The notes under the pieces are model-generated. The model was not told the DNA's origin. It did not search any database and was given only the letters and a program-made list of their open reading frames with translations. The translations under genes and the position numbers were made by a program. Positions 1 to 64,000 of a DNA stretch of 64,000 nt are shown in pieces (position 1 is the stretch's first letter; each line of letters opens with the position of its first letter). Origin of the DNA: Nepenthes gracilis (Eukaryota > Streptophyta > Magnoliopsida > Caryophyllales > Nepenthaceae); NCBI GenBank assembly GCA_033239525.1, contig BSYO01000019.1:9158592-9222591 (forward strand), given 5' to 3'.

Positions 1-2025
1 GAAGAAACACGTTCCCCATTTTTGGTAGAAGGACCATCGCTTGCCAAACAACCAGAAGAGCCAGATAATTGAGCTTGATGGTTGGTGACAATCGGTGAAT
101 CTGGTGTGAAAGGTGGATGATGATTAAAAGCACCGATCACACCTGGGTCAGAGGAAGACCTTTCAAGCCTCATATTTAAAGGATCGGGAGGCTCCGGACA
201 ACGGTATGGACTCCCAGGCCAGGGGGTAGACGACTCGGATAGCCGACAAGAAGAGCCTTCTGCGGCGGGGCCATGAGGCAGAATCGGGTCTGCCTGGACC
301 CCGGCGGGCACCGTATCAGGGACAGAGCTATTGTGACTGGGAGGAGGTTCACGTTCACATCCAATGGGCAGCGCATTGGAGATCTGGACAGGGCTTTCTG
401 ACAGGTCATTTAAATTTTCCTCCTGTAAGGCCATCAATGGTCGAAGGGGCCGCCGCGGCAGGAGTTTTTAAGCGGGGAGACATCCTAGGAGGAGCGAAGG
501 AGGGTGAGTCATCCCGTGGAATGACCGCCTGCTTAGGGACCCAAGAAGTTTTGATTAGGTGACTCTTATTCCTACTCTTTTTAGGAGCGGCCCTGCGCGC
601 CGGCCTATGCTGGTACTCAAATTTGATTTCACATAGATGATCATTCGGATGTTCGGCGCAGCCTCTAGCACGAATCTTTACAGATTCCGGCCGAGCGGCA
701 TTGACCCCCATTTCAACACAAACTCTCGTGAAACCCAATCGCTCGAGTTTTTCAGTAACAAGGTCTAAAAAGAGAGGTTTGCCAACCGCACTTGCAATCC
801 AGCTTAACCCCAGCGGGGTCCAGTATTCAACCGGGATCCCAAACATGGTGATCCATGTAGGGAAGGATTTGTGTTCCTCACGGGAAAAAATTATTCCAGG
901 CCACCATTTTTTAAGAAAAAACGGATGTCCAGCAATCATCCACGGGCCATTAGCCAGACATTTGTCCAGCATTGAGCTTGAGGAGAAACGAAAGAAAAAA
1001 AAATCCGATTCGTTTCCAGCCACATGTTGTTGTTCGAATCGCTTCCATATTTTCTTAGTGATATAGTTAAACATTAAAATGAATGGGATTACCTACGAAA
1101 TATCCAACAAGGGTAGTACCCCACAAGTCCGAACCCTGTTGGATAACATGAGGAGGGGGGACAAAATGATATTCTCTAAATCGGAAATATTCGGAGGGTA
1201 GAATTTAAGAGGACACTTACCTCCAATAGCCCTTTTCTCGACAACTGACGCCCAAGAGACGCCCGGCGAGCAGGAGGCAAGTGCATCAATTTGGCAAGAG
1301 GCATCGGCGCTGTGGGAAACAATGTCACCGAAACTCTTTGGGGGCACCGCGAGCAATCCGATAGGTTCAGGCGAGCCCGAAGGGGGGACCTGAGGACCAA
1401 ATGAACAAACCACCGTCGCCAGGGCTCCTGGCGTGTTCAACAAACCAGAAGGAGAACCGGAAGAGCTAGTAGAGGGCCCGACGGGACAGGGATGGTGGGT
1501 TGAAAAGCTCGCAACCCCAACGCACGCAGAGTCAGGCAACAGCATAGAGGAAGGCTGTACCTTGAGGAAAGACTCGGCCAAACACAAATGGGCAAACTGC
1601 GAAGTCGGCCCCACCGGAACAATAGGGGCCACATCAGGGATGGAAGAGACAAACGAGGGAGACGATGGAGGTAGAGTGAGCAAATTGCTAATCGATTGTT
1701 GGAAATCGGTGGGAAATGGAGGAGAAGAAGGTGAAGGAGACAGGTCCTCAGAGACCAGGGGAGCCGCAACAGTTGGGGAAGAACTGGAGCGACGATTCGG
1801 ACGATGCTGGCAAGAGGCGGCAGACAGAGGGGGGTAGTCTGGGTCGGACGACGGGGAGATGGAAGGGGAAGAATCGGTGGGATGAGAAGTGGCGTGAGGC
1901 CACGGGGTGGCAGGGCGAGAGAAGAAGGAGGACGAGGAGGACTGGGAGACGGGTGGAAGGAGGACGGGGGAAAGAGGGTTCAAGGATGCCGGAAAGCAAG
2001 AGGGAGGAGAGTCGACCGGCGCCAT
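1..2025 (-). pseudogene. LINE-A1 ORF1 (DUF4283-type RNA-binding protein), frameshifted
   Basis: L1-type ORF1 protein, expected to bind element RNA and form the ribonucleoprotein. The start at 2,025 (MAPVDSPPS) matches the starts of the copies at 33,811 and 34,258. The first ~270 residues are Pro/Ser-rich and probably disordered. The DUF4283-like domain follows: a WASVVEKRA.GGK entry motif, ILSP, then KIWKRFE.QHVAGNE, HPFFLKKWWPG, SFPTWITMFGIPVEYW and GLSWIASAVGKPLFLD, ending RVCVEMGVNA. A basic tail (APKKSRNKSH) follows. Frameshifts near 1,160 and 1,075 break it, with an in-frame stop at 1,093-1,095 between them; another frame change near 410 is possible. The usual CCHC knuckle cysteines after DUF4283 are not evident. 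The family is certain from similarity to the two other copies here; function is known only from the family. Confidence 0.85.
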
Positions 2026-2100
2026 GGGTGCCGGCAAGAAAGTTGAAGGCGGGCAAATCGGGGGTTCAAAATCGGCTTGACCAACAACACGGTGAGACCA
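1..2100 (-). mobile_element. LINE-A1, 5' part of an L1-type LINE, cut by window edge
   Basis: Minus-strand 5' end of the same LINE family as the copies at 25.8-33.9 kb and 34.2-44.6 kb. All three share a short 5' leader rich in TTTGAA and TGCCCGCC, then a start codon in a CCGGC(G/A)CCCATGGCGCC context. Only the leader and ORF1 are inside the window; ORF2 and the hairpin tail would lie to the left. The leader abuts an endonuclease-coding scrap at 2,090-2,156. The TSD cannot be tested because the 3' end is missing. Confidence 0.85.
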
Positions 2101-2156
2101 AAATCGGCTTTCAACCAAACCCACAATACTACAGCCGTGGGAGCTGATGAGGTTAC
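2090..2156 (-). pseudogene. Short LINE endonuclease fragment upstream of LINE-A1
   Basis: The minus strand encodes CNLISSHGCSIVGLVES, matching the N-terminal endonuclease segment of LINE-A3 ORF2 (CNLICSYRCSIVGLVET, from about 36,465). It lies directly upstream of the LINE-A1 leader, so LINE-A1 either inserted into an older ORF2 or carries captured ORF2 sequence. The type B element interrupted its upstream side at 2,174. Confidence 0.6.
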
Positions 2157-2940
2157 AAGCAGGCAGGTACATCACATTGTGGAAACAATCAAATTCGAAA
2201 TCCTTCCACTTTCCCCGGCGTTGGTGCTGCCGTTGCCGGCCATGGCCGGTCTTTCGGGGGTTCCCCCTGGTCCACTCTCGAACCTCGGCTCCCATGGTCT
2301 TCCTTCTCCTTCGTCTTCTTCTCAGCAATCGAAGCGACTGGATTACGCGAATGATATCCCAAAGCTGAGGTGGTCGGTCGTATCCCTATCACCGGCCCCC
2401 GATGCTCCTTTTTTGTCTTCCCTGAAATCCAAGGGTCTCCGAAAAGACCTTGAGAACGAAGATTTTGTTCCTCCTTGGACGGCTATCATTCAGAAGAACG
2501 CGGCCGGCAAGCTGTCAAAAATTTCTTCTTGGGCTCGTTCTTCCGAGAGTAGGAGTTTGCGCTCCTTAGAACCTCTAAAATACTTCCCTTCCCGTTCTCC
2601 CGAGGGTATCGATCCCCTCTTTTCCCCTCCGGAGGAAGTCACTCAACAGTGCCGGGAGTTTTGGGGCTACACCCTGGTTGGATTTTTCGTCGAAAAGCCT
2701 CTACACTTCCTGGCTGTTAGATCCATTGCTCGCTGTATCTGGGCAAAATATGGGATTAATCATGTTGCTACTAACGGTAAGGGTTTCTTCTTTTTCAATT
2801 TTGATTCTGACGCTCATCTGTCAGCTTGCTTGGAGCACGGCCCTTGGTTTTTCAGGAAAAATCCCCTGTTTCTTAAGCGATGGAATCTCGGCATGGTTTT
2901 GAATCAGGAATCCCTTAAGTCAGTTCCTGTCTGGATTAGC

Positions 2941-5002
2941 TTTTTTTTTTGGTAAGTAAGTATTTTGGATTATTGGGAGAAAATTTACAAAAGCGATATT
3001 TTATCGCCAAGTATTTTGACTTGGGGATAAAACAAACCCGCTGGGGCATACCCCGAGCAACCAGTACAACCAAAAGTACTAACCAACCTCTAGGAGGCCA
3101 ACTCTCTACAAAATCTATAGAAATTAAAAGATATTACAACACTACCCAAAGCAGCCATAGAACCACGAAAACAAGGGCAGCACGTGCCAAATTAAAATTC
3201 ATCAGGTGAACTGCTTAACTGCGTCTTCAAAACTTCAATGTCATCAGACACATGATCATTACAGCAACCAGAAAGGCTTTCCATCAGCTCCAGCAAGGCA
3301 TAGCCACTTCGGCTCTAGCTAATATATCAGTTTCTGCATAACCTCAGATAGCAAGCAGCCAGCAGCGGGATATTCTGCAATAGCTAGAAAACACTGGCGA
3401 TCCAATTCGGGTCCATGAAACCCCAAGAGAATCGGCCAGCTGGTTCCCAAAACAGCAAAGCAAGGCCAAGACATTGGCCACCCTCAAAGCATCCACCAAA
3501 TCCCTACAGCAGCTGCATCTAATTCCGCAGATAGCAAATAATGGGCTCAGCTAAACAACCGATGAGCCCAGCAACAGCTAAATCCGATCCACCATCAGCA
3601 AAAACCAACCAAGAAACTGACCAATTAGAGAAGGCCATCATCGCAATACTCAATTAGAGAAGGCCAATCAACAGCAGGAGCACATGTCGTGCTCAGCAAT
3701 GACAGGGTAGAATGAAAATTCAGGACCCAAAGATAACAGCAGATAGAGAGCCGGCCAAAACCGACCCAATCACGGCCAAAACAGCAGAGCTGCCTAACTC
3801 CAACAAACAATTGAAACAAACCAAGAGACAACATATCCACCCATCTACATCAGCTGAGCAAGCATTGCAAACGAGCATAGCAATGGGACCACACCCTCAA
3901 CTTCCGCTAAAGCCAAGCAACATCAAAAACAGATGACACCAAAGATCCTTCAATGTCTTCAAAGACACCAGCGCAGGCACTGAGAACAACAGAAACGAAG
4001 AGGTCCTCAACATAAGCTGGAGGAGCAAATTGGTAGAAGGAGACCAACCACCAAAATATACACAGCATCCAAAGGATTCCCAGCATCCAAATCAAGCCAC
4101 TCCCATCTCTTCGACATTCCAGCGCAAAACACCCAATCCAAAGCAGACCCGGGCTCCCCTCAACCTAGCCAACAGGAAAGGATACACCGACAGAGATGCA
4201 AAAGAGACCGGGCACAGGTTGATTCATCCGCAGCAAATCCACCGAGCCACAAACAAGCTTTAGGTTCTAGCAACTGCTCCCGAAATGGGACGCAGCAGAA
4301 ACCCCAAGCACCAACCCATGGCTTCTACAAAGGGAGCCAGAGACAGAGACAGCGCTCTCTGCCATGACAGCCAGAGCAAAGAGCGCATCCGAAAATGGAA
4401 GAATAAACCCCAAGAAAACAAGATTTAAGGAAAGGAAGAGAAGGAAACCGAAAGGGCCACCAGGGCAACCGGCAGGAACCTCCATCCCAGCCTGAATCAG
4501 CAGAAGAAGCCTCAAAGTCGCATTCGAGGATACAGATGCCGCCGACGAAGCCAGAGACAGGGGTCCATAAGAGAGAATGTGGAAACGTGGCCGGGAGGCC
4601 ACCGGGCAGAACACCCAGGAGGCAACCGGGAAGCAATCGACCATCGACGGGAAGCAACCGGGCGGAGCGACACGGAGACCGGTCGAGGCCGGCTCCGGCG
4701 CCGCCCGCCCAGAGAAGGAGCGTCCCGAGGACGCTTTCAAATTTCAAAATCGAGAACGAGATTTGAAAAAGTAGAGAGAAGCGAGAGCTTCTCTCTCTAG
4801 GCGAAAAATCTTTTCTCGAAAACTGTGGTAAGGGTAAGCTTTTTAACGTGACTGGCCCCACCGCTTCGCGGTCCCATACCCCAGAAATCCCGAAGGATTT
4901 TTTAGGGAGGCTCAGTACCATGGGTGCTTCCACGGAGATTCGAACCCGGGTGGAGAGGGAAGGCGTGAGCGTTACTAACCACCAGGCCGAACTCCGCTTC
5001 GG
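2941..5002 (-). mobile_element. Long tRNA-headed SINE chimera (2.06 kb) inside type B ORF1
   Basis: Minus-strand unit with TSD CCTGTCTGGATTAGC at 2,926-2,940 and 5,003-5,017. The left end is poly(T)-GGTAAGTAAG plus the inverted hairpin tail and a CCTCTAGGAGG block (to ~3,130). The right end is a tRNA-like SINE head flush with the TSD. Between them lie about 1.7 kb with no credible coding capacity. Next to the head are a GAGAGAAGC/GCTTCTCTC hairpin (4,776-4,799) and GC-rich GCCGG modules (4,600-4,700). The head, hairpin and GC modules recur at 12.9-15.9 kb and 60.2-60.7 kb. Confidence 0.9.
4833..5002 (-). repeat. tRNA-derived SINE head with Pol III A and B boxes
   Basis: On the minus strand the unit starts CCGAAGCGGAGTT. 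It has an A-box-like TCGGCCTGGTGG (4,979-4,990) and a B box GGTTCGAATCTC (4,935-4,946) with near tRNA-like spacing. A conserved SINE body ends in AAGCTTACCCTTACCACAG. It lacks a full cloverleaf and is repeated four times in the window, so it is a SINE head and not a tRNA gene. Confidence 0.88.
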
Positions 5003-8000
5003 CCTGTCTGGATTAGCCTACTAAATGTTCCATTTGAATTTTGGACCCCACTTGGTTTGAGTTGGATTGCAAGTCGAGTGGGGCATCCTCTCTGTCTTGA
5101 TCCACGTACTGCTAGGATGGATTATTTGCATGCTGCTCGAATTTGCGTGGAGGTGGGTAGGGATGTCATTCTCCCTGATAAAATTAGGATATCTGTTGGA
5201 GCCGAGATGTCTCCATTGATAGCTGAGGTGGAGGTAATCTATCATTGGAAGCCTAATGGCTGCTTGATTAACTACAAATCCAAATAGAGCTGCTCTGCGT
5301 TGGTGGCAGAGGATCCGAAGCCTAAGCAGAATTCTTCTTCTCTGCCTCTGAAATTTGGTGGCGTTGTGGATGGGTCTGTCCTGCCTGAGAATGACGTGAA
5401 GATGAGGCACGTTTCTGCCCCTTTTTCAGGGCCTAGCTCTGGCACTGTTGGTGTTACAACTGACTTGAAGGAGGGGGCGTTTGCCATTATGGATCCGGTT
5501 ATAATGGAGGTGGAAAGTGGTTGTGCTGCGCAATCAGCCCCAGCTTCTGAATATTCTGAGGGTGTGGAGAAGTTCTCACCCCTGCTGGCCTTGTCTGGAA
5601 GGACTAAGGGGCCTGAGGCTGGATTTTCTCTGTTGATGATGGACTGTATGTAGTTGGATGCAGTTCGGCCGACTCTGAATTGGATGCTGGCCCCCATGCT
5701 GCTGACTTTGCTGATGCCCCTGGCATCTCAAATGTTGTTACTGTGGATCCGGTTGAAGCTGGTTCTGTGTCTGCGGCTGTACCCAGTGTAATGGATGATG
5801 CGGATTCTTTCTCGAAATCCACTATGCAGATCCCAGTGCCTCTGCTTGCTGTTGGTGTCCCTGCTGAGATCCCTGAGGTGGATTATGTAGTGATGCCATG
5901 TTGTGAACCCCTCTCTGCTGATGTCGCTCTCCCTGTGGTGGCAGCCTTTGCATCAAAGTTGCCCCCTATTTCCTCACTTGCCCAGTGTGCTCCTGGTCCA
6001 TCCACTGAGATTGATCCCGATATTACTCCTGATTCTATCTCTCGGATTGCTCGGAAACATGGCTTGATTCAGTCTGATCCGACTGGATGATTTACTCCTT
6101 TCGAACCATTGGATGTCAATCGTCCAGTTTGCTCGGTTGTGGACTCTGCTGATACTATGATTCCCTGTGAATCTCGCCATGATTTTGTTCCGGCTTTGTC
6201 CTTTGCGGACCCGGATGATGTTGTTGTGGGTTCTGATTCAGTGACCCGTGCTTTCGCGTCAGCTTTCCCTCTGGGGCATCCTGCCCGTTGGAATGAGGAT
6301 GAACTATTTGCTAGGCAGGCTGTAAATGGGTGGCAACGAATGGCCCGACGGCGTAATTCTGCACCCAAGAAAGCCCGGTCTCCTCATCCTTGAAATCCTG
6401 TAGCAGTTGGATCGGGTGCCTAACTCGGCCGGTAAGAAGCAAGGCAGCCAGCATTCCACGCCAGATGCCACGGCATGTTTCCACATTAGATAACCCGATT
6501 AAAAAGCAGCGAGAGTAAAATATCAGCATTGGCAAAGACCGATTCGGAGCAGTGTATAGGCAACCTATAATATTTGCTGTGAAATAGTGCATCACAAAGT
6601 TTCACATCCACCCAAAGAATTAAATCCAGCACAAGTAAAGTTGAGAAACCAAACGTTGAGGAAACCAAGCAACGGACAGATCGCGGCAAGACGGATTCTT
6701 GATGGCTACGGCCCAGGACCTCGGCAACACCGAGACATCTCCAACCGCAGCACCCCAACACCCCAACAAAGAAACATTCCCCCGCCACAACCGTATGCCT
6801 CGTGGAATCACCATCATGTCATCAAGGCGGCCATGGAATCCCACAGGCGTGAAGTTCACCATTCTACAAAGACGCACCGCACACCGCACACCAAAAGCAA
6901 CATATACATCCGCATCACATCTCCACGAAACAACATGCCTCTAAAAACCGTGTGCGGTATAATCCAAGCTTCAAGGAAGCATACGGGCCACATCGGTATT
7001 GATAGCTTTGCACCCAGCAATACCACTCCTTCCGTCAACCAAAGATCAAACTTCGGACAAAGATGTCATCATGAGAGAGCAAGCAGGACGCATCTTCATT
7101 TACTTCGAGATCAAACAGAATCAGCCGCACCCACCCGTAAGCACAATCAGCCTATTAGTCGTGTTCAAGGCCATCGGAATCAATACTTCCAAGTCACACC
7201 CAAAAGAACCACGCTCCAAAGATTCCAAAAAATAGAAAAGATCACAATTACACAGCCGCGAAGGAATTGTGCTTCACATGAGAAAATGTCAAGAAAATGA
7301 AAAGCATACAAAACAGCAACAAACGGTGCACATTTAGAGTAGCCACAGATCGGCAGCATGGCCCAAACAGCATGATACTCAACCAAACGGCAGCTCGAAC
7401 GGTGGACCACAAAGATCGAGCCAACAAGCGGGCGTGAGACCACTGCTAATAACCATGGGCATCACACCATACTTCATCTTTAGGAAGTAAATTTGCCAAG
7501 TTCGGTATGATCCCGCTTCACATCCCACACCACATCAATAATTGTAAGCAAACCACCTCTGACGAGAATCAAACCCCAGCCAACAAAGAACATATTTCTA
7601 ATCCAAATCTTCTCTTGCGCATCAATCCTCGATCATTCATTCATGATCAGCCCGTCATCCAAAGAAAGAACAGCAGCAAAGGAGATACGAACATCATCAA
7701 GACCCATGCTCGACCAGCATTCCTTAGAAAGAATGCCAGGGTAGCAACAATGAATTGGCACAAACTACTCTGTCCCAGCTTGGCTGCAAATATCACAGGG
7801 GCGAAATGCGGCACCCATAAAAATCAGCTACCTCGGGCGAGACAACATCGTTCGAGAAAGTTCCGGTAGCACATCAACTTGATCAGCCAAGCAACATACC
7901 CGAAGGCTCCAGTAGCGACCATCGACACCCGGTTTTACATCGGCATATTCATAAAACACAAAGATGCCATGGCATTACTAGAAAAGAAAGCCCCGGATCG

Positions 8001-8823
8001 ATGCGCTTCTTATAACATCAAGTATCTTTGGAGACCGAAAACATCACAATCGGGTTGAAGATGGCACATAGACAGCAGCACTTACCCCACACCACACCAC
8101 CAAAATCAGTCCGCCCCAAGAGGCAGCCACTTTATCCCCACTCAAGAATAACAGCGAAATCAACCGGCAGCAGCCACACTACTCGATGTCTGTTCACCGT
8201 CGGCTTGACAACCAGCACATCGGGCTTCAACATTACCGCAAATGACTCAAAGACTTATCCAAAATTGTGAAATAAGCAACTCGAGTCCCCGACACTTGCC
8301 ACAAAGCAAAAACAGCATTTTCAAAGTCCCAATGGGACAACAAAATACCAATAACATCGACCTCAAACCACCCCCGGGCAGATCAAAAACAACAATAGCT
8401 GCATGGAAGCCAACAACTAGAAACCAGCGCATTCCACTACCACATCCAATCATCAGCCAAACAGTCTCGACAAAGGAACCAGACCGTCCAAAATGTTTCA
8501 CCCGCAGTCACAAACCCATCAGAACCAAGAATGCCACTCACAAATCACATATGCACACCTCTTTTTTTTTCTTTTTTTTTTTGGGAGGGGGAGGGGAGTC
8601 AGATAGAGGGAGGGGACTATACGACAATCAGGAAATAGCATCGACCGAGTTCTAAAATACAATACAAATTTTTATGGATGAACAAACAAACCACAACCGG
8701 GAACCAAGCCCCAACGGAGCTATCCAATCCAATCGTCGATAAGCTCAGACTCCGCACGAGAGAAAGGCAAAAACCGCCAAAGATCAGCTGGTAGGCCAGG
8801 TGGCAGCTTCAACGGCCGCTCAA

Positions 8824-8840
8824 TTACTTACCAAAAAAAA
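8824..8840 (+). mobile_element. 17-bp ultra-truncated tail insertion
   Basis: TTACTTACC plus eight A lies between two perfect 13-bp copies of AACGGCCGCTCAA (8,811-8,823 and 8,841-8,853). It is an insertion retaining only the last nine nucleotides of the shared 3' end before poly(A). Confidence 0.9.
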
Positions 8841-8879
8841 AACGGCCGCTCAAGTCTAAAACCCCCCTTTTTTTTTTTA

Positions 8880-8983
8880 CTCCCCACCGCATCTGAGTCG
8901 TCCTGGAAACTCCCCTTTCAGGCACCGGGATGGTCAATAGTTTAAGTCTCACAACATTGACCACCAAAGAGAAAATTTGGGGT
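8880..8983 (-). pseudogene. Scrap of LINE-A ORF2 C-terminus
   Basis: The minus strand matches the last ~35 codons of ORF2 and its A-tract as seen at 53,400-53,513 (DNA motifs TTTGGTGGTCAATGTTGTGAG and CGGTGGGG before the A-run). It is too short for independent function and forms the 5' end of the inverted segment of the 6,421-9,504 insertion. Confidence 0.7.
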
Positions 8984-10084
8984 TTCAGGCCTCGAGGCTG
9001 GTGCTGTTCATATCGCCCTTGATGTTGTTCCTTGGCTGACGGGTCCCGATTTCCAAGCTGTTGGACCTTCCTTGCTCTCTGTATTCTCTTAATGCTTCTT
9101 GCCAACTTCCTGCGACAGGGATGATTGACTAAAGCTGAGGATTTTGTTTCTTTGGGCCTTGCTGCTGTTTGTCGGACCGGTGTGCCCATGGTTATTTGTT
9201 GGTTGTGAAATGCAGTTATCTGTTGTACATGTCATTGCATTTCGAGTTCTCTTTTGGCATGAGCTGATGATTGTTAGGTTGATATAGTCCTCGATCTTGA
9301 GCCTGTATTTTGTATAGATTTCAGTTTTACATGAGTCCGCCGTATGGTGTCCTCATTGAGATCCTTTGTTTTCTATTGTACCACTTGCTCGGGGCATGCC
9401 CTAGCGTTTATGTTTTATCTTCAAGTCAAAACACTTGAAGATAAAACATAGATTTTGTAATTTTTCTCCCATTAATCCAAAATACTTACTTACCAAAAAA
9501 AAAAAGTTGGATCGGGTGCCGACCCGAAGATGTAGTGATCGGCAGCTGCTGGAATTGAAAATTGGTGGTGCTGCTGTGTGGTCTCAGACCATCACTCAGT
9601 TTTGGTTGCTGTTGTGGCTTAGCGTTGAGGAGCTGGATTGAGTTTCTTGATCCGCAATATGATGTGCTTTCCTCTTCGTAGGTGGCTGTTGGAATGGTTG
9701 ATATTGCTGTTGGTGTCCTGCTGCTGCTACTTTTGCGTGGGCAGTGGAATGATGCTGAAGCTGTTCTTTCCTTACAGTGGCCTCATTTCCTTTGCTGTCG
9801 CTGCTGTGTGGATTATGTAGGAGCTGGTTATGATGCAATGGCTCCTTTCCTGTGCTGAATATGGTTTGGCTACTGTGATGTTTTCCTATCCATGGTGCAT
9901 ATTTTGATAGTTGGTTATCCAGCAGATGGTGCCCCTGGGCTTATGGTCTCTTGATTCCGATTTCCCTTGATTGGTTCTGAGGCGTTGATGTAGGAAGCTG
10001 CTGGCCGCGGCCCTGGTTGGCTTCGGTAGTTTTTTTTGTATGTATTTTGATGTACAAACTGCTCGGGGTATGCCCTGGCGTTTT

Positions 10085-10124
10085 ATGCATCATCTCCAAG
10101 TCAAAATACTGGGAGTTAATGCAT
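10085..10124 (+). other. Tail stem-loop with compensatory changes (type B element)
   Basis: The arms begin and end ATGCAT...ATGCAT, where most copies have ATGTTTTA...TAAAACAT. Both arms changed together, so pairing at the stem base is kept. It lies 50 nt upstream of the poly-A and downstream of CTCGGGGTATGCCC. Confidence 0.8.
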
Positions 10125-10196
10125 AGCCTTTGTAATTTTTTTCTCCCATTAATCCAAAATACTTACTTACAAAAAAAAAAGCAGGCAGGTACATCA

Positions 10197-12229: not shown

Positions 12230-13695
12230 AGCAAACGCCACAGGACATTCGGCTGCATCAATTCCATCGAGATGAGACAACAGCCGACTGAGACCTCAGC
12301 AATCCAAAGCTCTAGATGCCAACCCACATCAGAAATCAGTCAAAGGAAAGCCCTCACCGCGACCAAAAGAAATCTATCACCCAAACAGAACTTCGGCCAG
12401 CTCTTCAGTACCTCGCCTAACAGTTCGGCTCCAGAGCAGCACGGCATCCCCCAACCCGTCCAACAGGAGTGAAAACTCAGGAAGAGGAACATCAGGGCGG
12501 CAGCAAAGGTAATCAGAAGCGCCAGATCCTTCAAGAAGCTCAAGAGCCGACAAAACCTATATACAGCAACGCAAACAAAGAAAGCTGAAGCACCAGGGAC
12601 CCAGCCTTTCCTTTGCGCATACCAAGGAGAGAACCGAGAAGAAGGCGAGGGGGGCAGCCAGAAGACCGGCCATGGCCGGCTCCGACACCACCCAGCCAGA
12701 GGAAGCCACGCCCTACGACATCGCACGAGACAAGCGAAGAGAATAGGGCCACGCAAACGAGCCCACATCCTTGTCAAGCCTCGAAGAGAGACGGCGAAAC
12801 CAGGACAGATCTTCGCCGAAGAGAGCACGAGATGAGAAGGAGACAGAGGGGCGGCCGGGCGAGGCAACCAGGGGACCGGCCATGGCCGACGCTGGTGCCG
12901 CCCGGCCAGATGAGGAGCGCCGCCGCACCGAGATTCAAATTTCAAAAATGGAATTTGAAGATGGAAGGGTTTTAACATCCTTGGCCTAGAGAGAGAAGCT
13001 CTCGCTTCTCTCTTCCATCTTCAAATTCCATTTTGAAATTTGAAACTCGACGCTGCGGCGCACCTCATCTGGCCGGGCAGTACCGGCGCCGGCCACGGCT
13101 GGTCCCCTGGTTGCCTCGCCCGGCCGGTCCCCTGGTTGCCTCGCCCGGCCGCCCCTCTGTCTCCTTCTCATCTCTTGCTCTCTTCAACTTCGAAGATCTG
13201 TCCTGGTCCACCGTCTCTCTTCGAGGCTTGTCAAGGATGTGGGCTCGTTTGCGTGGCCCTATTCTCTTCGTTCGTCTTGTGCGATGCCTTAGGGCATTGA
13301 TTCCTCTGGCTGGGCGGTGTCGGAGCCGGCCTTGGCCGGTCTCCTGGCTGCCCCCCTCGCCTTCTTCTCGGTTCTCTCCTCGGTTTGCGCAAAGGAAAGG
13401 CTGAGTTCCCGGTGCTTCTGTTTTTCTTCGTTTGCGTCGCTGTATGTAGATTTTGTCGGCTCTTGAGCTTCCTGAAGGTCCTGGTGCGTCCGATTGCCTT
13501 TGCTGCCGCCCTGATAGAGCTGGCCGAAGCTTTGATTGGACGATAGTTTCCTTTAGGTTACGGTGAGGGCCTTCCTTTTGCTGATTTCTGATGTGGGTTG
13601 GCATCTAGAACTTCGGATTGCTGAGGTCTCTGTGGGCTGCTATCTCATCTCGATGGAATTGATGCAGCCGAATGTCCTGTGGCATTGCTCTGTTT
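12230..13695. repeat. Head-to-head inverted repeat of two SINE-chimera bodies (~0.7 kb arms)
   Basis: The left arm (about 12,230-12,967, minus element) is matched in reverse complement by 12,990-13,695 (plus element). Examples are AGGACATTCGGCTGCATCAA at 12,242 against its complement near 13,660-13,680, and the GC-rich GGCTCCGACACC/GGTGTCGGAGCC pair at 12,678 and 13,316. It arose because a relative inserted in opposite orientation at 12,967. A transcript across it could fold into long double-stranded RNA. Confidence 0.85.
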
Positions 13696-51548: not shown

Positions 51549-51554
<6 letters not shown>

Positions 51555-53502
51555 TACTATATGAAAGTGCTTTGTATAAATATATATATAAGTGGGAATG
51601 TATAAGTGTATATGAATGTAGACGGATAATGAAAATATAGGTATGTTTATGTGTGGACATATGGGTATACATGAGAATAAAAATATTAAGGAGCATAGAA
51701 GGCATTTACACTTTGTATATGTGGTATTTTGAAATATACCGGCCTGTGTTAATAATTAGGTATGCACATTGATTGTTTGTGGAGAAATAAATATTGCTTG
51801 GGGATGGAACTTGAATAAAAGTAAAGATCGTTGGCCTTAGTTGTAGGCATCGCTCCAGAACAGAATGGAAGAACAGTTGAGTAGTTGAATTAAGCACATA
51901 AATCATATCTCGGTCCTTGTATGCCTTTGAACGTCCTGAGATATATTCCTTTGTGTTAGATTTGATGGAGTGAGTACGGTTTGTGTCAGCACTGAACGAC
52001 ATTCTTATCATTGATGTTGCAAAACCTTCTTTGCGTCATACTCGATTGTGTGAGTATCTTAATTGTTGGTTTCTTACGGTCAAGGTTGAGGAGAGTGTGT
52101 GAAAACATTGAAGTATCTGGTCGAATGGGAGGCTTTGGTACTTTAATGTGGTCTACGCTTATCCGATACTGATTTCCGTGTCCTGGTGGTATTGAGGTAT
52201 ATTGCCTAGTTCGGCGGGATGCTTATAGCCATGTGACCATCGTAGGAGATGATATCAGGGATATCATTTGGCGAGGGGTATCACGGATAGTATCGGCATG
52301 CTACGGGTACAGCCTCTGGGAGGACTGTAGGGGTAGTTGGATACCATGGATAACCTCGTTGCACTTACCCAGCCGTCGGGGGCGTAAATACGCGGTCTTT
52401 GGGTCACTATGGTAGAATAAGGTCCAAGGAGATTTATTGTGATGTTTCATTATTGTTGACATCTCGTGAGTTGGGATTCGGTTGAATCCACGAGTTATAT
52501 TTTGTTGAATCCATGGATTGGATTTTATGATATTCGGGTTTGGTGGAATCTATGTTGTTTATCGATATTGATGTTCAGGTCGTTCACGCTGACATATGGA
52601 CCGGGGAAATCCCCAATCATTGTTGATATCAGATTCCAGGAGATTACCGTTGTTTATTGGTACTCTTGTTATTTTTGGATGTGCGGGTCTTGTGGGACCT
52701 ATTTTGTTTAGAGTCGTATTTACGACGTGTTGTAATTCATCTCGGATATAGTAGATGGTTAGAGTGATGTTGAGACTCTATAGTTGATATTCGAGATTGT
52801 TATTGTTATTAGCATTTTTGATTATTATCACTTGTTGGGCTTTGGCTCACCCTTGTATTTCATTGGCTCCAGATTTAGCTGATTGCATAGTGCAGACCGT
52901 GGGGATCCTACTTTTACTGCAGGACTTTCAGGTAAAGCGATTTGTGTAGGTTAGACATTATTTATCAGTGGGAGACAAACTAGATGTGTTATTGATAGAA
53001 ATTGAGTAATTTTCATTTGGGCTGCGACCCATGATTCTTAACAGTTGCTATTTCGGGATGATTATATAATGTATTGATGAATTTGATAGTAGTTTAATTT
53101 AATTGTATTGTTATTATGGAATATTATGGATGATTTTAAATTTTGAGATTTCCGCGTGATTGATCCGAGCTATATTTGATATTTTGGGTTTGGGTCGTCA
53201 CACTAATATCCAAAGGCATTCTGGTATTCACTGGCCCTACCCTGAATGGTATAACAATATTTCCTGGGCTGCCTCTCATTGGAAAGGAAAAAGCCTTCTG
53301 GCTGCCGCCAAGCGCTTGTCTCTGGCCGCCACGGTTTACTTCATATGGAAGGAGCGCAATAATCGGATTTTCCAAAAATCTCCCCCCCAAGACTCCTCTT
53401 GTCTCTTCTCTTTGGTGGTCGATGTTGTGAGGCTTAAATTAATGACCTTCTCGGCTCCTAATAGGGCTGACTATAGGTCGAATCGGATTCGGTGGGGTAT
53501 AT

Positions 53503-54643
53503 AAAAAAAAAAAAGGGGCTGCGTTTTGGCTGTAGCCTGCCTTGCTTTCCGGAGGCCCTCATCTGGCTGGTTTTTGTGTTCCTATTTTCGCTTCTCCCCT
53601 TTGGAGTCAGTGGAACTTGATTCTTAGGTGTGCTAGGTGCCCGGTTTACTTAGTTTGATCCCTGCTGCCGTTGTTGTTCACTTTTGGGCTGCTTATTAGC
53701 TCTGTTTTTTTGTATTACCCCCTCCATTAGCTTTGTCTTCCCCTCCTAAAAAAAAAAATTTTTGGGGCTTTTGCCTCCTCTCTGTCAGGCGCTATAGCAT
53801 GGTTCTTGTTTTACTTTGCTGTGTTCGTGGTGGTTGCCTCTCGAGGGGCTCCACTTCCCTTTGTAGGGTGATGCTGTTGGCTTGGCTCTAGATTGGTGGC
53901 ATCCTGTACATGTATAATGAAATGGTGATATTCAGGTTTTCAAGCTGTAGCCCTCCTAAAGCTGATAATGCATATGCCTTGCCCGGTTATGGCTCGGGGT
54001 TGTTGAGTTGGATACTTTGTTCTTGATCTGTTGGGGATTTGATATGGTTGTATATGCATTGTTGTAGCATTCTAGAAATCTGGTGCTTTCTCACAAATTC
54101 GGACTGGTGCGGGAACTGTTGTTGTAATGCTGGATGTATTCTAGCCATCTTTCAAATGTTGATTCTGATGTGAAGGATGGTTGGCTACGTTCTGTTAGTG
54201 ATGATGCTAACAGTGAACAAACAACAGTGTCTTATGGCAGCCGTTGGTTGGTTTTTATGCTGATGCTGGTTATGGGATGTTGCCGGTACTGCTGGCTCAG
54301 CCTATCATTGGTGGTGTGGTGTGGGACGAATTGCCGAATCATATAGAGCAGGCGTGTTGGCTCTATACTGATGTAAAAGGTTTGTGCTGTCATCGGTTTC
54401 TGGAAATGAGAAGCTTTGCTGGTGCCAAGCTGTTTTCTTGCTACAACCGGGTGTTCACTGGACCCTGCTAATTTCTTTGGTTTGCTTTTGGGATTTTTTT
54501 TCTTTTCTTTGTGACTTTGTCATGATCTCAGGGGACTCCCTTGCTGCTATGTTCTTACTCCAAGTTGGCAAAACACTTGGAATGGAACATAGATTTTGTA
54601 CTCTCATTTATTTTTTAATACATTTACTTACTTACCAAAAAAA
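53503..54643 (+). other. Non-coding 3' region with two A-tracts and divergent tail
   Basis: A-tract at 53,503-53,513, then ~230 nt ending in CTTCCCCTCCT and a second A-tract (53,747-53,757). About 760 bp without ORFs follows, then the tail (stem-loop about 54,549-54,590) with poly-A to 54,643. Confidence 0.7.
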
Positions 54644-54857
54644 AGTGGCCGGTTCGGATTTGGTTTTTACTAGGTTTTTTTTCTTCTGTAATTTTTCTTC
54701 GGTCTCATGATATGGTTCATGGTGGTGCTCAGGGTATGCCCTAGAGTCTATATTCTACATCTAAGTCGGCAAAACACTTGGAGTCAAAACATTATTTTTG
54801 TAATTTTTTTTACTTTAATACATCTTTACTTACAAAAAAAAAGAATTCTCTACCGAG

Positions 54858-55227: not shown

Positions 55228-55879
55228 GTATTTAATTTGATGTTTTTTTTTTGGTAAGTAAGAATTTTGGATTAAAGGGAGAAAAAATTACAAAATCGAT
55301 ATTTTATCTCCAAGTAGTTATACTTGAGGATAAAACATAACCTGCTAGGGCATACCCCGAGCAGCAAGTACATCAGAAAAACCATAAAAGAAACCTCTAG
55401 GAGGCCAGCGTTCTAAGAACCGACAGAATATGAAAAAATATTACAATAATGAACAAAGGGAACTGGTAATCCCCTGCAAAAAAACAAGCCAAAGGCTATA
55501 ATACAATAGCAACATGATTAGTTGCATCACCCGAAATAGCCTACAGATCAGCAATTCGATAGCAAAAGAATAACCACCAATCCATACGCAGAATCAACAC
55601 AGCATTAGGAGACACAAGCAGCAGTTAAGAACCGAATGCCAGTGCCCATCAGTTGCCATGGTTCAGAAGATCGCCACATCAGCAGTTCCACGTCAAGAAA
55701 CAAGCCCAGCCTTGAAAACAAATCAGCAGCAGTAAGAAACTTGTGAACCGCATGTCAAGACCAGCACCAGAGACACTCCGTCCAACCAATAGCCAAGAGG
55801 CACTCCGTACAATGCGTTACAGCCATAAAAACTCCGGAGAAGAGCACTCCTGTTAAAGAGCTTCGACTAGACAGCCACA

Positions 55880-55927
55880 AATTTTTTATTTTTATTTTTA
55901 TTTATTTATTTATTTATTTATTTTTTT
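55880..55927. repeat. (TTTA)n microsatellite
   Basis: TTTTTA then TTTA units directly next to the 3' boundary of the SINE head. It may mark the original 3' tail of the SINE before fusion. Confidence 0.85.
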
Positions 55928-55935
55928 GGAACAAA

Positions 55936-56109
55936 CTATGATGGGTAAGCTTTTTTAAGTGATTGGCCCCACTGCTTCGCGGCCCCTCATCAAAAATCCC
56001 GAAGGATTTTTGGAGGCTCAGTACCACTGCCAACATGGAGAATCGAACCCGGGTGGGTTGATGATTAGAGCGCGAACGCGATCAACCACTCCGCCAACTC
56101 CGCGTTGGC
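55936..56109 (-). repeat. tRNA-derived SINE head
   Basis: The minus strand starts CCAACGCGGAGTTGGCGG. A-box-like TTGGCGGAGTGG (56,086-56,097) and B box GGGTTCGATTC (56,040-56,050). Body ends AAGCTTACCCATCATAG. More diverged than the other three heads. Confidence 0.85.
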
Positions 56110-56169: not shown

Positions 56170-57557
56170 TTTTTTTTTTTTGGTAAGTAAGTAAATTACG
56201 TTAAATTAAAAGAAATATACAAAACTTTGTACTAACTCCAAGTGTTTTTCCGACTTGCAATTAGAACAAAGACAATGGGGTGAACACCTAACCTTTTTTT
56301 TTGGTAAGTAAGTATTTTGGATTAATGGGAGAAAAATAGTACAAAATAATATGTTTATCTCCAAGTATTTTGACTTAAAGATAAAACATAAAGCACTAGG
56401 GCATACCCCGAGCGGACAGTACATCTGAATATACAAAATGGCCTCTAGGAGGACAACTTTTACCGAAAATGACAAAAAATAACATTTCCATCGTAAACAA
56501 GACTGAACACAACCAACACATAACCAGCATCACACAGTGGCATGGCAAGGCAGTCAAGACCACAGTCATTTGTTGAAAACATAGCAAAGAAGAACATAAA
56601 TGAAACCTTGGCTCCAAGGCTCCACAAAACCAATGCAATTTGCATCATAGTCACTGTGGACTTCCAAATGGCAGCAGTTCAGCAGCACAAAAAGGCAACA
56701 GGAGGATATCTAGTCCCCATCCATCAGCATGCACGATGTGAATCGAGAACCGAACAAGCAAGTTGCGGCGTCGGCTGCACAGCAGCTACACCCGGTGCAG
56801 CAACCCGATTCTGACTTCATATGGGCAATTGGAGCATGCAAGCAAACCAGCTCCTGCATACTCAACCCACGGGAGATCAGCACACCATCATCAGCTAGAC
56901 TGCAACTGCAGCCAATTCATCCTCTGCCTTCCAAAAACTGCCATTCACCCTGCTTCTTACTTCAGGGGCAGCAAAATTGGTAGACCACCAACTTCAGGCA
57001 AGCTGCATACCAGTCTCATTAAGTACAAATCAACAGCTCCAAAAAGATGCTTCAGAGAACAGGTCGTGACCAAACCCCATCCACATCAAGGCCATGTTAC
57101 ATCAGCAGCATGAACTGGCATACCAAAATGCCTACTAAAAACCCGCATCCATCTTTCTTCACTCAAAGATGGGATCCGCATCCTACTATCAGCAGCAATA
57201 CCAATTCAGGAATGCAAGACAGCAAGATGCATACCCAACATATTCATAAAACAAAGAGGCAGCATCCCCCGAACAAACAGAAGGCAGCAGTTAGCAAACC
57301 GCCAATCATAGCCATTCTAAGACAATCCACAACAAAGCCGTTTGCATCCACTACCCCATTAGCAGGCAGCATTTGCAGCCGCCAAAAAGCCATTCCTGGC
57401 AGCAAGCAGTGCAGAACACACCAATGGGATCGGCCAACGCAGATTGCAGCCCAATCAACATTGTTGCAAAGCAACAACAGCAATAAACTGGCTGTAGAAG
57501 CCAGACAAAAGCAATCCGATGAACTGCAACATAAACTCACCACAATAAAGTAGCAAG

Positions 57558-57670
57558 CAGACCAGCACCACCTCAACAAGAAGAATTTTTAGCAACCAAA
57601 AAAATTCCGCAATCAGACCAGCACCACCTCAACAAGAAGAAATTTTAGCAACCAAAAATTCCGCAATCAG
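57558..57670. repeat. 56-bp tandem duplication
   Basis: CAGACCAGCACCACCTCAAC...TTCCGCAAT occurs twice in a row (57,558 and 57,614) with only A/T-run length differences. Single copy in relatives. Confidence 0.88.
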
Positions 57671-58319
57671 CTACTCTGCCCTCAGCCAAATTATCCCAGT
57701 CCATAAACACACGGGCTCCCCCAACCTAATCAACAAATGGGACACACAGCCATACCAACGGAGTAGCACCACATGAAATTCGGCTACACCAATACCTTCA
57801 AGATGAGACAGCAGCCCACAGAAAGGCACTAAAGCACTCCAAAGAATCGCACCTCCGAGATCTGGCGCGGCCTTAATTTAAAGAAGCACCCCACGAGACA
57901 CACCGGAGCTCAACTCAATAGACAAGCCCAACATAGAGCGAGACACACGAGAAATCCAGAGGAAGTAGCTCCCGAAGCCACACATCGAGACCCGGCCAAT
58001 ACGCTGCAGTCCATACCATAAGCATCCAAGCCATTCTCCAAAAATGGAAGCACAAGGAGAAATCCCCAACACACCAGAAAGTTCAGAGGCATCCAAGAGG
58101 ACCACGCCGGCGCTTCAGAGCATCCGCCAGGCTTCACCAAGCTAGCACGACACGGCATCCCCCAAAACCGTCCACCAGAAGGGAACAACCAGGCATCGGA
58201 ACCTCAGAGCCAGCATCCAGGCCTTCGAAAGCCCCATCCCAATCTGAATGGTAGAGACGAACCTAAATCAAACCCTAGGCGCAAACCGAGGAAAAAAGAA
58301 ACAAGGTGGAAGGAGATGC

Positions 58320-60377
58320 TTTTTTTTTTTTGGTAAGTAAGTATTTTGGATTAATGGGAGAAAAATAGTACAAAATAATATGTTTATCTCCAAGTATTTT
58401 GACTTGAAGATAAAACATAAAAAGTTAGGGCATACCTCGAGCGGACAGTACATCTGAATATACAAAATGGCCTCTAGGAGGACAACGTTTACCGAAAACG
58501 ACAAAAAATGACATTTCCATCGTAAACAAGACTGAACATAGCCAACACAAACCAGCATCACACAAAGGGCATGGCAAGGCAGCCCGATTCCACATTCGGC
58601 TGTTGAAAACTTAGCAAGAAGCACCATAAATGAAACCTTGGCTCCAAGGCTCCACAAACCGAATGCATTGGCGGCAGTTCAAAGAAGACAAAAGGCAACA
58701 GGAGGATATCTAGTCCCCATCCATCAAGATCCACGATGTGAATCGAGAACCAAACAAGCAAGTTGCTGCGTCGGACAGCAGCTACACCCAAAGCACGGTA
58801 GCCCCCAAACACTACACCTGGCATACACACCGGTACACCCCGGCGCGAAGAACAGCAGACATCATCCCGACACGAGCAGCCCAGTCCACCGCCCACCAAA
58901 GAAAAAACCAAGGCGCATGCATCGGTTCCTCAAAATAAGATGTTGCTCAAATGAGGCAAAATTTTATTCATCAATGAATAAAATTCCAGCCCCAATCGCA
59001 GCAAGTCTCCACTAAACTCGCATACCAAGCAAGGACAAGACCAACTTCACTTACCATACCAAAGAATAATATGAAGCGGTCGGTGCAAAGAACACTAAAT
59101 CGGCTGTATATAATCCAGCCAATAGCGATCCGGTGGACTTGACAAAGATCGCACTGAAGCGAGAATGGTTCTGCATACGGTGACAATAGTGTAGAAGGCT
59201 ATACAAAGACTTCCAACAAAGAATATCTCGCTTTTTGACAAAAAAACCACCACCGCGAGATCACCAAAGGACCAACAAAGACAAAGAAGAATCGGGCTAG
59301 CTTTGCAGCCAACCAACGTTTGAAAGGAAAATTCAACAAAGATCATGGAATGAGCCAATTGAATTCCCAAAATACTCAAAAGGAAAATGAGTTTAAGCTT
59401 GAGGTAGGCATGCACCAACCACAAACAAACAGCCAGTGACAAACCACCACCGAGACGATCTCGAAGAACGAACCTCAAATCGTCGGGGATCTCGGGCATC
59501 AAACGAATCCCACCAGCTCTTCCCGGTAAAGCCATGAACTCCCCAACCAGAAATTCACAGCATTCCCAACCCGTTCAACCGGAGGGGACACAATGGCAAA
59601 GAAGATAGAAAAGCCGACAACAAAAGCTCGTTCACCGCGGATCCAAAGAATGTGCGAGAGCAAAGCAGCCACCATCGAAATGTTTGTCAAGTGAGAAGCC
59701 AACAATCTCAAGAACTCAAACGGTTGCCATTAAGTAGAGCTTCAAAAATGGCAGCAACCCGAGGCCCCACCGCGGCGAGAGGGATCGCAAACAACCCGAA
59801 GTTCCACACCAGCTCTTCGACCATCGACCACATATCTCCAAACTAGCACGACATCCCCCAAACCGATCACCGTAAAGGAGGCACACAGGCGAGAAGCGCA
59901 ACAGAGCCGAGAGATACAGACCTTTGGATGCGGCGGATCCAACACGCGGCGAGGGAGCCGACAGAAGCTCCGGATATCGATCCCATAGCCGGGAGACGAA
60001 AGAGGCTGAGCCTACAACCCAATCGGGCCCGGGAGAACCGAATCGAGAGCACACTCCTAGGCATGCACCAGGGGGCCGACCCAGGACGGCTCCGTCGCCT
60101 CCCGGCCAGAGAAGAGACACCGAAGACAACGCTTCGAATTTCAAAAATGAAATTTTAACGAAGAGAGAGCCGAGGATTTCATGGATTCGAGGGTTCCGGG
60201 TTCACCGAGAACGACCCAACCATCGTAGGGATTCAGGAAGAAGGAGACGAAATACCGGAGGGGGACCGGGCACAGCAACCAGGAAGCCGTCCAAGGCAGG
60301 CTCCGGCGCCGCCGGGCACCCAAAGCAGCATCGACGAGGACAACGACGCCGGGATTTGAATTCAAAATTTGAATTCG
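58320..60377 (-). mobile_element. SINE-chimera body (2.06 kb), 5'-truncated
   Basis: Perfect 16-bp TSD AGGTGGAAGGAGATGC at 58,304-58,319 and 60,378-60,393. Inverted tail on the left (CCTCTAGGAGG, GGGCATACCTCGAGC, stem-loop near 58,380-58,420). The first few hundred bases match the outer 56.3-kb element closely. The 5' end stops within the TTCAAATT segment, before hairpin and head. GC modules at 60,050-60,110 and 60,260-60,320. Confidence 0.92.
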
Positions 60378-60776
60378 AGGTGGAAGGAGATGCGAGGACT
60401 CAAAGTGAGCGCCATCTCACTCGCAGAGGCCATAGGGCCCCAGCCACTAAATCTTCAACAGATGGAGGGCCTTCGTCCCCATCAGAAGGCGAAAAAAGTA
60501 AACCGAGCTCTCAGGCAACTACGAAAGCATGGAGGTCGCCGAGACTGACAACTCCAGAGCATGGAGACGAAAGGATGGAGACGGATAGCCGGGTGAGGGG
60601 GGGCCGGGCAAGCAACCGGAAGGCCGGCCATGGCAGGCACCGGAGCCGCCCGGCACCCAAGGCGGAAACGCCGTTGACAACGCCCTGGCAAGTTCAAAAT
60701 TAAACGAATTTTGAAAAAAAAAAGTAGAGAGAAGCGGGAGCTTCTCTCTCTAGACTGTTCGTACACCTAACCTCAT

Positions 60777-63411: not shown

Positions 63412-63663
63412 ATTTTTTTTGGGGGGGGCGCTTGTGAGTGTGTGTGGGTGAAAAAGGAGACATAGCTAGGCTCCGACGAAGACACCAACAAAAACAAAAC
63501 CAAAGCTTGACCTTAATACACAGGCCAAGGCGGTAAAGGCAATAAAAGGGGATAACAAATTAGGGAAAGGGCAAACCCGAAGGCTTGCAGCCTGGGGGGA
63601 GCCCAAGCACAGAGAATAAAAAAGGAGATTTCTTTTTTAGATGTTCCAATGAATCAGGTGCGA

Positions 63664-64000
63664 TCAAGATGCACACCTATCATCTTCCAAGGATTTTTGG
63701 AAAATACCTATCAATTTGTTCCGAATGGCATTGATTATCAATGAAAAAATATGGGAGACATCTTGTGGGGAGGATTTTTGAAAAATACGATTGTTATGTT
63801 CCTTCCAAATGAAGTAGACTGTGGCCGCCAGAGAAAGGCGCTTAGACAAGGCCATAAAACGTTTCCCTTTCCATTTGAGCAGCCCAAACGATGTTTTGGT
63901 ACCACTTGAGGTAAGGCCAGTGAAGACCCATTTTTCTTTGGATTTTGGTCCATAAGGATCTGGAGTAGGGACAGGAAAAGAAAAGATGCTCATGATCTTC
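63664..64000 (-). pseudogene. LINE-A6 ORF2 C-terminus, cut by window edge
   Basis: The minus frame reads PVPTPDPYGPKSKEKWVF, SFGLLKWKGKRFMALSKRL, SLAATVYFIWKEHNNRIFQK, SPQDVSHIFSLIINAIRNKL and a TGA stop at 63,664. This matches the last ~100 residues of the ORF2 at 53,203-53,502 (LSLAATVYFIWKERNNRIFQK), including the invariant WKGK and FIWKE blocks. It is open throughout the visible part, so this copy may be better preserved than the others; endonuclease and reverse transcriptase would lie outside the window. Confidence 0.85.

Follow-up and report, generated by a model that had tools for sequence, protein, structure and literature searches.

The stretch of Nepenthes gracilis DNA analyzed here, 64 kb in length and referred to below as the window, to which all counts apply, harbors a pile of nested retrotransposons. 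These include long interspersed nuclear elements (LINEs) of the L1 type with open reading frames ORF1 and ORF2, elements that carry ORF1 alone, tRNA-headed elements, among them a short interspersed nuclear element (SINE), and non-coding elements. They end in related 3' modules, here called tails and denoted by position and strand. The sequence TTACTTACCAAA, at up to two mismatches, occurs 32 times in the window vs 5.94 ± 2.05 times in shuffled sequences; the real tails number 27, each followed by an A-run of A(8-19). Target-site duplications (TSDs) are readable for 22 of these ends. Both numbers reproduce those of a preliminary description of this DNA, as does the presence of the tail in LINEs and in dependents with different 5' content; both full-length LINEs of the window end in it.

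All 27 tails are closed by a TTACTTACC-like sequence with A(n), the exact TTACTTACC being found in 20. The GCTCGGGG block, with up to three edits, is present in 19 of the 27, a palindrome, with at most one mismatch, in 11, and a long hairpin (stem-loop 2, SL2) is complete along its length in the 22 tails of alignment A2, so that the complete module, previously ascribed to every end, belongs to a minority of the tails. Tails 34014- and 40990- begin inside the long hairpin, and 8824+, 46459+ and 48860- keep just 9-14 nt ahead of the A-run. The pentamer TTGTA, located ahead of U-rich runs and A(n), occurs in 23 of the 24 aligned tails. The tails are alignable throughout, with pairwise identities of 49-89% in the 11 pairs compared; the tail of LINE-A and that of SINE 20421- are 83.5% identical, that is, a LINE and a SINE have a common 3' sequence (alignments A1 and A2). 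Four tails (47130+, 54628+, 54826+ and 56190-) make up a diverged subtype with 9-nt SL2 loops, such as CGGCAAAAC, and without the CCAAAATAC block. No Rfam family matched the tail, and a search of viral and prokaryote collections with one 21-base pattern of tail DNA gave 0 exact matches, which is what a plant sequence would be expected to give.

LINE-B (25762..33894, minus strand) is a full-length L1-type element of 8133 bp that consists of a 5' untranslated region (UTR), ORF1, a degenerate ORF2, a 2-kb 3' extension and tail 25783-, and is flanked by a perfect 14-bp TSD, GTGTTGAACCTTGC. Its tail module (25775..25893, minus strand), delineated from alignment A2, pair counts and a fold z of -3.37, includes stem-loop 1 (SL1; GCUCA-GGGG-UAUG-CCC-AGC), SL2 with a CAAAAA loop, UUUUUGUA and CACAC-UUACUUACC. 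LINE-A (34156..44620, plus strand; own length 8046 bp, excluding two nested insertions) is also full-length, with an ORF1 containing DUF4283, an ORF2 containing RVT_1 and a weak zf-RVT, a 3' extension and tail 44603+ (module 44499..44611, plus strand; alignment A2; fold z -3.86). The TSD of LINE-A (18 bp, one mismatch, at 34138), which pairs with tail 44603+, is masked by the nested insertions; a reading of LINE-A as a tailless element, with A-runs at 40025 and 40139 near 40.1 kb, was overturned by a TSD search of the whole upstream region, which led to tail 44603+. The alignment of LINE-B with LINE-A starts close to the 5' end (39-98 of LINE-B vs 58-117 of LINE-A) and extends through ORF2, which places the LINE-B TSD at or near the true LINE 5' end. 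The ORF2s of the two elements are 68% identical at the nucleotide level; their 3' extensions yielded no blastn match at 1e-3, yet the tail is common to both.

The LINE-C unit (48024..54643, plus strand; tail 54628+; 12-bp perfect TSD) is chimeric: it contains a LINE ORF2 end and 3' UTR (49497-49860 and 53204 to ~53760) that are split by a foreign stretch. It was not retained as a clean 5'-truncated LINE because the first 1.2 kb have no LINE match and no separate TSD was found for the LINE part. The 3.3-kb foreign stretch within the ORF2 end (49861-53203) begins with TGTAACATCCCG, and there is a GT/AT microsatellite near 51.4-51.5 kb. In LINE-D (6421..9504, plus strand; 16-bp perfect TSD), a LINE 3' region with antisense collinear matches to LINE-A, LINE-B and LINE-C is inverted ahead of an upright tail (9486+), an arrangement that looks like the 5' inversions made by twin priming. 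Altogether, by our own grouping, in which 5034-5103 was set aside as ORF1 of an ORF1-only element, LINE-related stretches are found in seven places. Four are TSD-bounded and all of these are tailed; three have unresolved ends (8-2074, 21891-22649 and 63747-64000). TSD-bounded LINE copies without the tail were not found among the seven places in the window.

The protein matches are those of plant elements. DUF4283 was detected in ORF1 of LINE-A (3.7e-28) and of the LINE at the window start (3.1e-29), and RVT_1 in ORF2 of LINE-A (1.1e-27); the zf-RVT match after the reverse transcriptase (RT) (9.6e-5, 23.4 bits) lies under the 27.5-bit cut-off. The best Protein Data Bank (PDB) match of the RT is LINE-1 ORF2p (2.6e-15, 59.8 bits), and other RT proteins, such as 8gh6 (R2), are close behind (2.4e-13 and 53.4 bits for 8gh6), so that the margin is modest. 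Two LINE-B fragments, in which the frames are broken, had no Pfam match in a scan for the APE-type endonuclease, and several homologous proteins carry PF03372. The ORF2 piece 36993-38078 has its first three matches in Nepenthes gracilis, with identities of 78% (81% of the query covered), 50% (100%) and 82% (47%), and the next ones show 39-40% identity (best 120 of 984 matches); by protein similarity, the host would probably be Nepenthes or a close relative. Nearly all ORF2 homologs, where named, are plant proteins among the matches listed. Also among the matches listed is a protein of a Nitrososphaeraceae archaeon, a metagenome-assembled genome (MAG TPA), with 43% identity to the LINE ORF2 over 61% of the query; this record probably reflects plant contamination. 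A search for the ORF2 in viral contigs returned none. Judged by the DUF4283-containing ORF1 and the L1-like RT, the LINEs are of the plant L1-clade type.

Eighteen of the 22 readable TSDs are perfect and 11-18 bp long (2959-, 8824+, 9486+, 10163+, 17442+, 20421-, 25783-, 34014-, 40990-, 44012+, 47130+, 48297+, 48860-, 54628+, 54826+, 55261-, 56311- and 58340-), the weakest being the 11-bp TSD of 56311-; the other four, those of 23411-, 44603+, 46459+ and 15904+, have 1-2 mismatches, and that of 15904+ was first recognized by eye and then located. For 10694-, 10846-, 17982-, 21866+ and 56190-, a TSD was sought and none was found. A TSD score of at least 11 was reached by 20 of the 27 tails vs 17 of the 300 random flanks and 3 of the 20 A-runs (at least 8 nt) outside the tails, in a scoring control that overlooks 15904+ and 46459+. 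The 21 tabulated intervals (56311- left out) nest without crossing, as successive insertions must. None of 21 target sites, as read, begins with three or more A, i.e., there is no TT/AAAA. The base 3' of the A-run is G in 22 of the 27 tails vs 24 of 104 other A-runs of at least 6 nt. Because target sites with an A-rich start are lacking and G follows the A-run, annealing of the poly(A) to a T-rich primer would not be needed; the RT thus seems to be independent of it, which fits an enzyme that would read the tail. In addition, 17 of the 21 resolved sites have G as the first non-A base in the 5' copy of the TSD; together, the two G biases hint that the endonuclease prefers a target other than TT/AAAA. 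Among the dicot retrocopies with L1-like hallmarks described in PMC4838847, one has an exact TTAAAA site and others deviate from it.

The folding of the tail was assessed with two alignments. Alignment A1 comprises 24 of the 27 tails, three being too short, and its rows for 34014- and 40990- contain host flank; A2 comprises the 22 tails that remain when these two are also omitted. SL1 has 7 pairs; SL2 has 17, which are perfect in 9486+. Across the 22 tails, 90.6% of the 508 cells are paired and 14 cells have both sides changed (an earlier count on 24 rows gave 90.6% and 17 cells). In none of 500 shuffles did the paired percentage, the count of double-change cells or the covariation score come as high, and structures slid along the alignment reach at most 50.2% paired. 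Single-sequence folds of 8 of the 24 tails contain both hairpins in all 8 cases, with z from -2.36 to -6.95. The predicted 3' stem-loops of the tail are conserved and include compensatory changes, and the view of the tail as structured is borne out by the changes on both sides of pairs.

Elements that lack ORF2 carry the same end. An ORF1-only element (2175..10178, plus strand; own length 2827 bp without nested insertions; tail 10163+) has an 18-bp perfect TSD and a DUF4283 match (4e-13), and no ORF2 was seen in it. Its ORF1 is 42-44% identical in amino acid sequence to that of LINE-A (42% over 140 amino acids); for the broken LINE-B frames, the value is 28-29%, and given this low identity, the element is not a fresh deletion of either LINE. 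A relative (23388..25334, minus strand; tail 23411-; 21-bp TSD with one mismatch; 52.5% amino acid identity to 10163+) is 5'-truncated inside ORF1; for the ORF1-only frame 24552-25382, no homologs were found at E<=0.001 among 3857 candidates. Another 5'-truncated ORF1-only element, homologous to 10163+, is nested in LINE-A (41750..44035, plus strand; tail 44012+; 15-bp perfect TSD). For 17982-, a candidate ORF1-only element, protein support is weak (E of 9e-6 and 7e-4), and the label was withdrawn in the tree of 22 tails.

Four elements have tRNA-like heads. Their lengths are 315, 865, 2062 and 2217 bp, to be compared with a SINE yardstick of less than ~700 bp without a coding body. The 315-bp SINE (20402..20716, minus strand; tail 20421-; 17-bp perfect TSD) is composed of a head and a tail, and the 865-bp element (55245..56109, minus strand; tail 55261-; 17-bp perfect TSD) has a head with box A/B-like motifs, as do the two long ones, of 2062 bp (2941..5002, minus strand; tail 2959-; 15-bp perfect TSD) and 2217 bp (13711..15927, plus strand; tail 15904+; 15-bp TSD with two mismatches). 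Box B with at most one mismatch and box A with at most two are present in three of the four heads (4946-, 13768+ and 56049-); the fourth, that of 20421-, was assigned by its 97.8% identity over 184 bp to the head of the 13711..15927 element. No tRNA was detected in the window by ARAGORN or, at E<=0.1, by Rfam, and Rfam gave none in two of the four heads at E<=10 either. The 315-bp SINE resembles a short form of the 13711..15927 element; this element and 2941..5002, at ~2 kb, are much above the usual SINE size and contain GC-rich stretches. Runs of T4-T7 occur in all four tRNA-headed elements (among the runs listed) and in the aligned tails. RNA polymerase (pol) III would stop at such runs before UUACUUACC, so that the full-length templates of these elements were probably pol II transcripts.

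A body of the long tRNA-headed kind, without a head, is found at 12968..17466 (plus strand; own length 2267 bp; tail 17442+; 17-bp perfect TSD) and matches the bodies of 15904+ and 2959-. A non-coding element of 2058 bp (58320..60377, minus strand; tail 58340-; 16-bp perfect TSD) has short matches to the long tRNA-headed bodies and is held within another non-coding element (56294..60762, minus strand; tail 56311-; 11-bp perfect TSD) that is 85% identical to it in nucleotide sequence over 504 columns; both 21866+ and 56311- were classed as non-coding by their match to 58340-. The diverged tail subtype terminates a 1.6-kb element (45491..47149, plus strand; tail 47130+; 15-bp perfect TSD) and an element with five nested insertions (44831..54842, plus strand; own length 1706 bp; tail 54826+; 15-bp perfect TSD). 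At 17484-17500, the element ending in 10846- appears, by eye, to be joined to the pre-tail of another element at an AGAGG microhomology; this junction is a possible template switch.

Some insertions contain little more than the tail. The minimal ones are TTACTTACC with an A-run only (8824..8840, plus strand; 13-bp perfect TSD), TAC-TTACTTACC-A(n) (46456..46483, plus strand; a weak 16-bp TSD with two mismatches) and CACAC-TTACTTACC-A(n) (48834..48865, minus strand; 13-bp perfect TSD). Two insertions are truncated inside the hairpin, 34014- (33995..34086, minus strand; 15-bp perfect TSD) and 40990-, which is nested in LINE-A (40971..41074, minus strand; 14-bp perfect TSD), and a 185-bp insertion is cut just upstream of the tail module (48297+; 48136..48320, plus strand; 14-bp perfect TSD). 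Solo tails had been listed as a class of elements in their own right; we dropped this class, given that they are 5'-truncated insertions of the kind that target-primed reverse transcription makes, with perfect TSDs of 13-15 bp in 8824+, 48860-, 34014- and 40990-.

Insertions with a plain poly(A) end served as a control. Among the 20 non-tail A-runs of at least 8 nt, three had TSD-like matches, which were judged to be artefacts: two are self-matches of an A-run or a tail and one crosses a nesting boundary. No convincing TSD-bounded plain-poly(A) insertion was seen among these 20 A-runs. The A-runs that directly follow ORF2 (28155-, 53503+, 40025+ and 8878-) were considered as poly(A) ends and rejected as internal because they have no TSD and lie at comparable places in several copies. 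In four LINE copies, such an A-run is followed by a second one ~110-300 bp further on (28155-/27929-, 53503+/53748+, 40025+/40139+ and 8878-/8582-); these pairs may be relics of an older poly(A) end, the present tail having been acquired downstream.

Taken together, these findings make it likely that the retrotransposons nested in the window were mobilized by L1-clade LINEs with stringent recognition of the 3' end. The handle would be a shared RNA 3' end of ~110 nt: SL1 and the long SL2, followed by a U-rich, UUGUA-containing stretch, UUACUUACC and a short poly(A). The LINE ORF2 protein would bind this handle, presumably by reading the hairpins; target-primed reverse transcription would begin at the UUACUUACC-A(n) end and proceed 5'-ward for any length; and the dependents would move in trans. 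Several LINE subfamilies would be present side by side; their tail variants group with different dependents, and the ORF1-only, tRNA-headed and non-coding elements would depend on these LINEs. At the sequence level, this scheme is supported by the shared end, the pairing, the TSDs, truncation down to 9 nt, the one 5' inversion, the two tailed full-length LINEs and the variety of dependents. Of the stringent structured tail envisaged in the preliminary description, the part that can be read off the insertions stands, in that there is no believable poly(A)-only insertion, as stringency predicts; recognition of the tail by the RT itself is a probable interpretation of this pattern.

Several observations weigh against this interpretation. 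Poly(A)-only insertions that are old enough for the A-run to have decayed would escape detection, and for 17442+ the TSD can also be read as an A-rich sequence with two mismatches. With respect to the structure, the number of pairs with a double change was reached by 6 of 500 shuffles and that of further pair types by 54 of 500; sliding the structure by +3 likewise yields 7 double-change pairs (10 cells); and the RNAalifold consensus of the 24 tails has 9 pairs with one double change, of which 6 agree with SL2 and 3 fall in SL1 at a shifted register. The tail copies are related, and the SL1/SL2 model was drawn from one copy (9486+), which favors it over its slid versions. No intact ORF2 was seen in the window. 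Finally, the tails of LINE-A and LINE-B are 65% identical, and that of LINE-C is 49-56% identical to these two, values at which one ORF2 may not serve all.

The last point bears on the number of enzymes involved. In the tree of the 22 tails, in which 3 of the 19 inner branches are starred as well supported and 9 are open, the four LINE-containing units occupy four places, and the starred branches force at least two; the tree of 24 tails has three forced LINE changes vs two in that of 22. LINE-A neighbors SINE 20421- (91/88), LINE-B neighbors 17442+ (91/86) and 10846- (88/75), and LINE-C, on a long branch, neighbors 47130+ (96/94). As a whole, the class labels show some clustering: they change 12 times in the 22-tail tree vs 14.7 times in shuffles (as low in 6 of 200) and 15 times in the 24-tail tree vs 15.9 in shuffles. 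The single RT that was originally invoked is not supported by these placements or by the divergence of LINE-A from LINE-B in ORF2 and tail; a set of LINE subfamilies, with some dependents belonging to each, seems to fit better than one enzyme for all, a conclusion held with moderate confidence, and there are signs of tail exchange between the subfamilies. A more specific version, which we put forward tentatively and regard as somewhat doubtful, is that the structured tail is an exchangeable barcode, such that each L1-subfamily ORF2 reads its own variant and supports private dependents, with tails swapped by recombination or template switching.

Among the alternatives, it is unlikely that the elements of the diverged subtype (47130+, 54628+, 54826+ and 56190-) belong to a separate, unrelated LINE with a convergent tail. 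Such an origin would account for their weaker match, the 9-nt SL2 loops and the missing CCAAAATAC, and is compatible with the chimeric LINE-C, where the ORF2 end is closer to LINE-B (79-84% nucleotide identity) than the tail is (56%); however, the position of the hairpin, the ACTTGG arm and the TTACTTACC-like end with A(n) are all common to these and the other tails. Another alternative, to which we give a rather low probability, is that what the elements share in the tail is mainly a signal for pol II 3' processing, with a UUGUA-like far-upstream element and CC/A cleavage, and that the RT needs poly(A) only. UUGUA is a plant poly(A) signal element, and both the near-universal TTGTA of the aligned tails and the T-runs, which imply pol II products, agree with this possibility. 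It leaves unexplained the two-sided changes that preserve hairpin pairs and, given that host mRNAs also have poly(A), the finding that among the A-runs tested no TSD-bounded insertion with a different sequence ahead of the A-run stood up. A processing signal may additionally be present alongside recognition of the tail. Ordinary descent, whereby every element arose from one LINE by deletion or fusion and retains the tail by recent ancestry only, under relaxed poly(A) recognition, appears quite improbable: the tails are indeed alignable throughout and 20421- clearly represents the 15904+ type in shortened form, but the ORF1 of 10163+ is too distant from those of LINE-A and LINE-B, the 3' extensions of these two LINEs do not match, and the LINE label needs four changes on the tail tree, at least two of them forced, which implies that tails were kept or exchanged while the rest turned over.

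The favored scheme of L1-clade LINEs with stringent 3'-end recognition has counterparts among known systems. Mammalian L1, with HAL1, an ORF1-only dependent, and Alu, also has ORF1-only and small-RNA-derived dependents; it is characterized by relaxed poly(A) recognition and a TTAAAA target, and there is no sign of either here. The zebrafish ZfL2-1 and ZfL2-2 and the eel UnaL2, which belong to another clade (L2, stringent), likewise have a tail with a cognate stem-loop, which in ZfL2 is reported to be bound by the part of ORF2 lying between the endonuclease and the RT (PMC4176376); UnaL2 ends in TGTAA repeats, not poly(A) (PMC3747384). The silkworm SART1, of the R1 clade, is described as requiring its 3' UTR plus a poly(A) end (PMC3747384).

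The closest parallel is maize LINE1-1_ZM and its sorghum relatives (monocot 1a lineage, ME1), an L1-clade LINE group that shares its 3' end, with a putative hairpin, with tRNA-derived SINEs. ZmSINE2 and ZmSINE3 are reported to have 3' ends in common with maize LINE1-1 (Baucom, 2009; PMC2774510). Ohshima (2013; PMC3747384) lists for flowering plants three SINE/LINE pairs, of which those of L1 type come from maize and sorghum only, and argues from a hairpin with compensatory changes for stringent recognition in that lineage. The assumption that plant L1s are simply relaxed, which the preliminary description took as the usual view, thus does not hold in view of this published stringent L1 lineage with a SINE-shared 3' hairpin (PMC3747384, PMC2774510). 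The published maize and sorghum part is ~45-50 nt long, with CGAG beside the stem, a UCU loop and SINE ends in poly(T) or poly(A) (PMC3747384), whereas the tail described here spans ~110 nt with two hairpins and a TTACTTACC-like end with A(n) in 27 of 27 cases, in a eudicot host. Compared by the published text, features of the monocot 1a tail do not recur: UCU is found in 0 of 24 SL2 loops, and CGAG in 1 of 24 tails, inside SL1. By title and abstract, the literature searched, which did not extend to subscription papers, yielded no eudicot L1 case and no work on Nepenthes LINEs or SINEs; absence is not implied. What is new relative to maize and sorghum is the eudicot host, the two-hairpin tail, the ORF1-only and 2-kb tRNA-headed dependents and the target sites without TT/AAAA; the principle is known. 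The best reading of the window, as judged from its sequence, is accordingly a real stringent-type LINE/SINE community in a Nepenthes-like eudicot (Caryophyllales), comparable in kind to that of maize and sorghum.

In vivo tests of such L1 lineages are named by Ohshima (2013; PMC3747384) as the way to settle RNA choice by plant L1s. Such tests could readily be made, if the present interpretation is true, on a eudicot L1 whose tail has two hairpins and for which nature has supplied compensatory variants, truncations down to 9 nt and several dependent families. If the barcode version is true, the private dependents would be the ORF1-only elements, short SINEs and the unusual ~2-kb tRNA-headed elements. 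A position of the LINE within ME2/ME3, the lineages regarded as relaxed, would mean that the model in which stringency was lost in parallel in plants has to be revised. The community would thus bear on relaxed poly(A) copying as a rule for eudicot L1s and on the joint evolution of tail specificity and parasite load.

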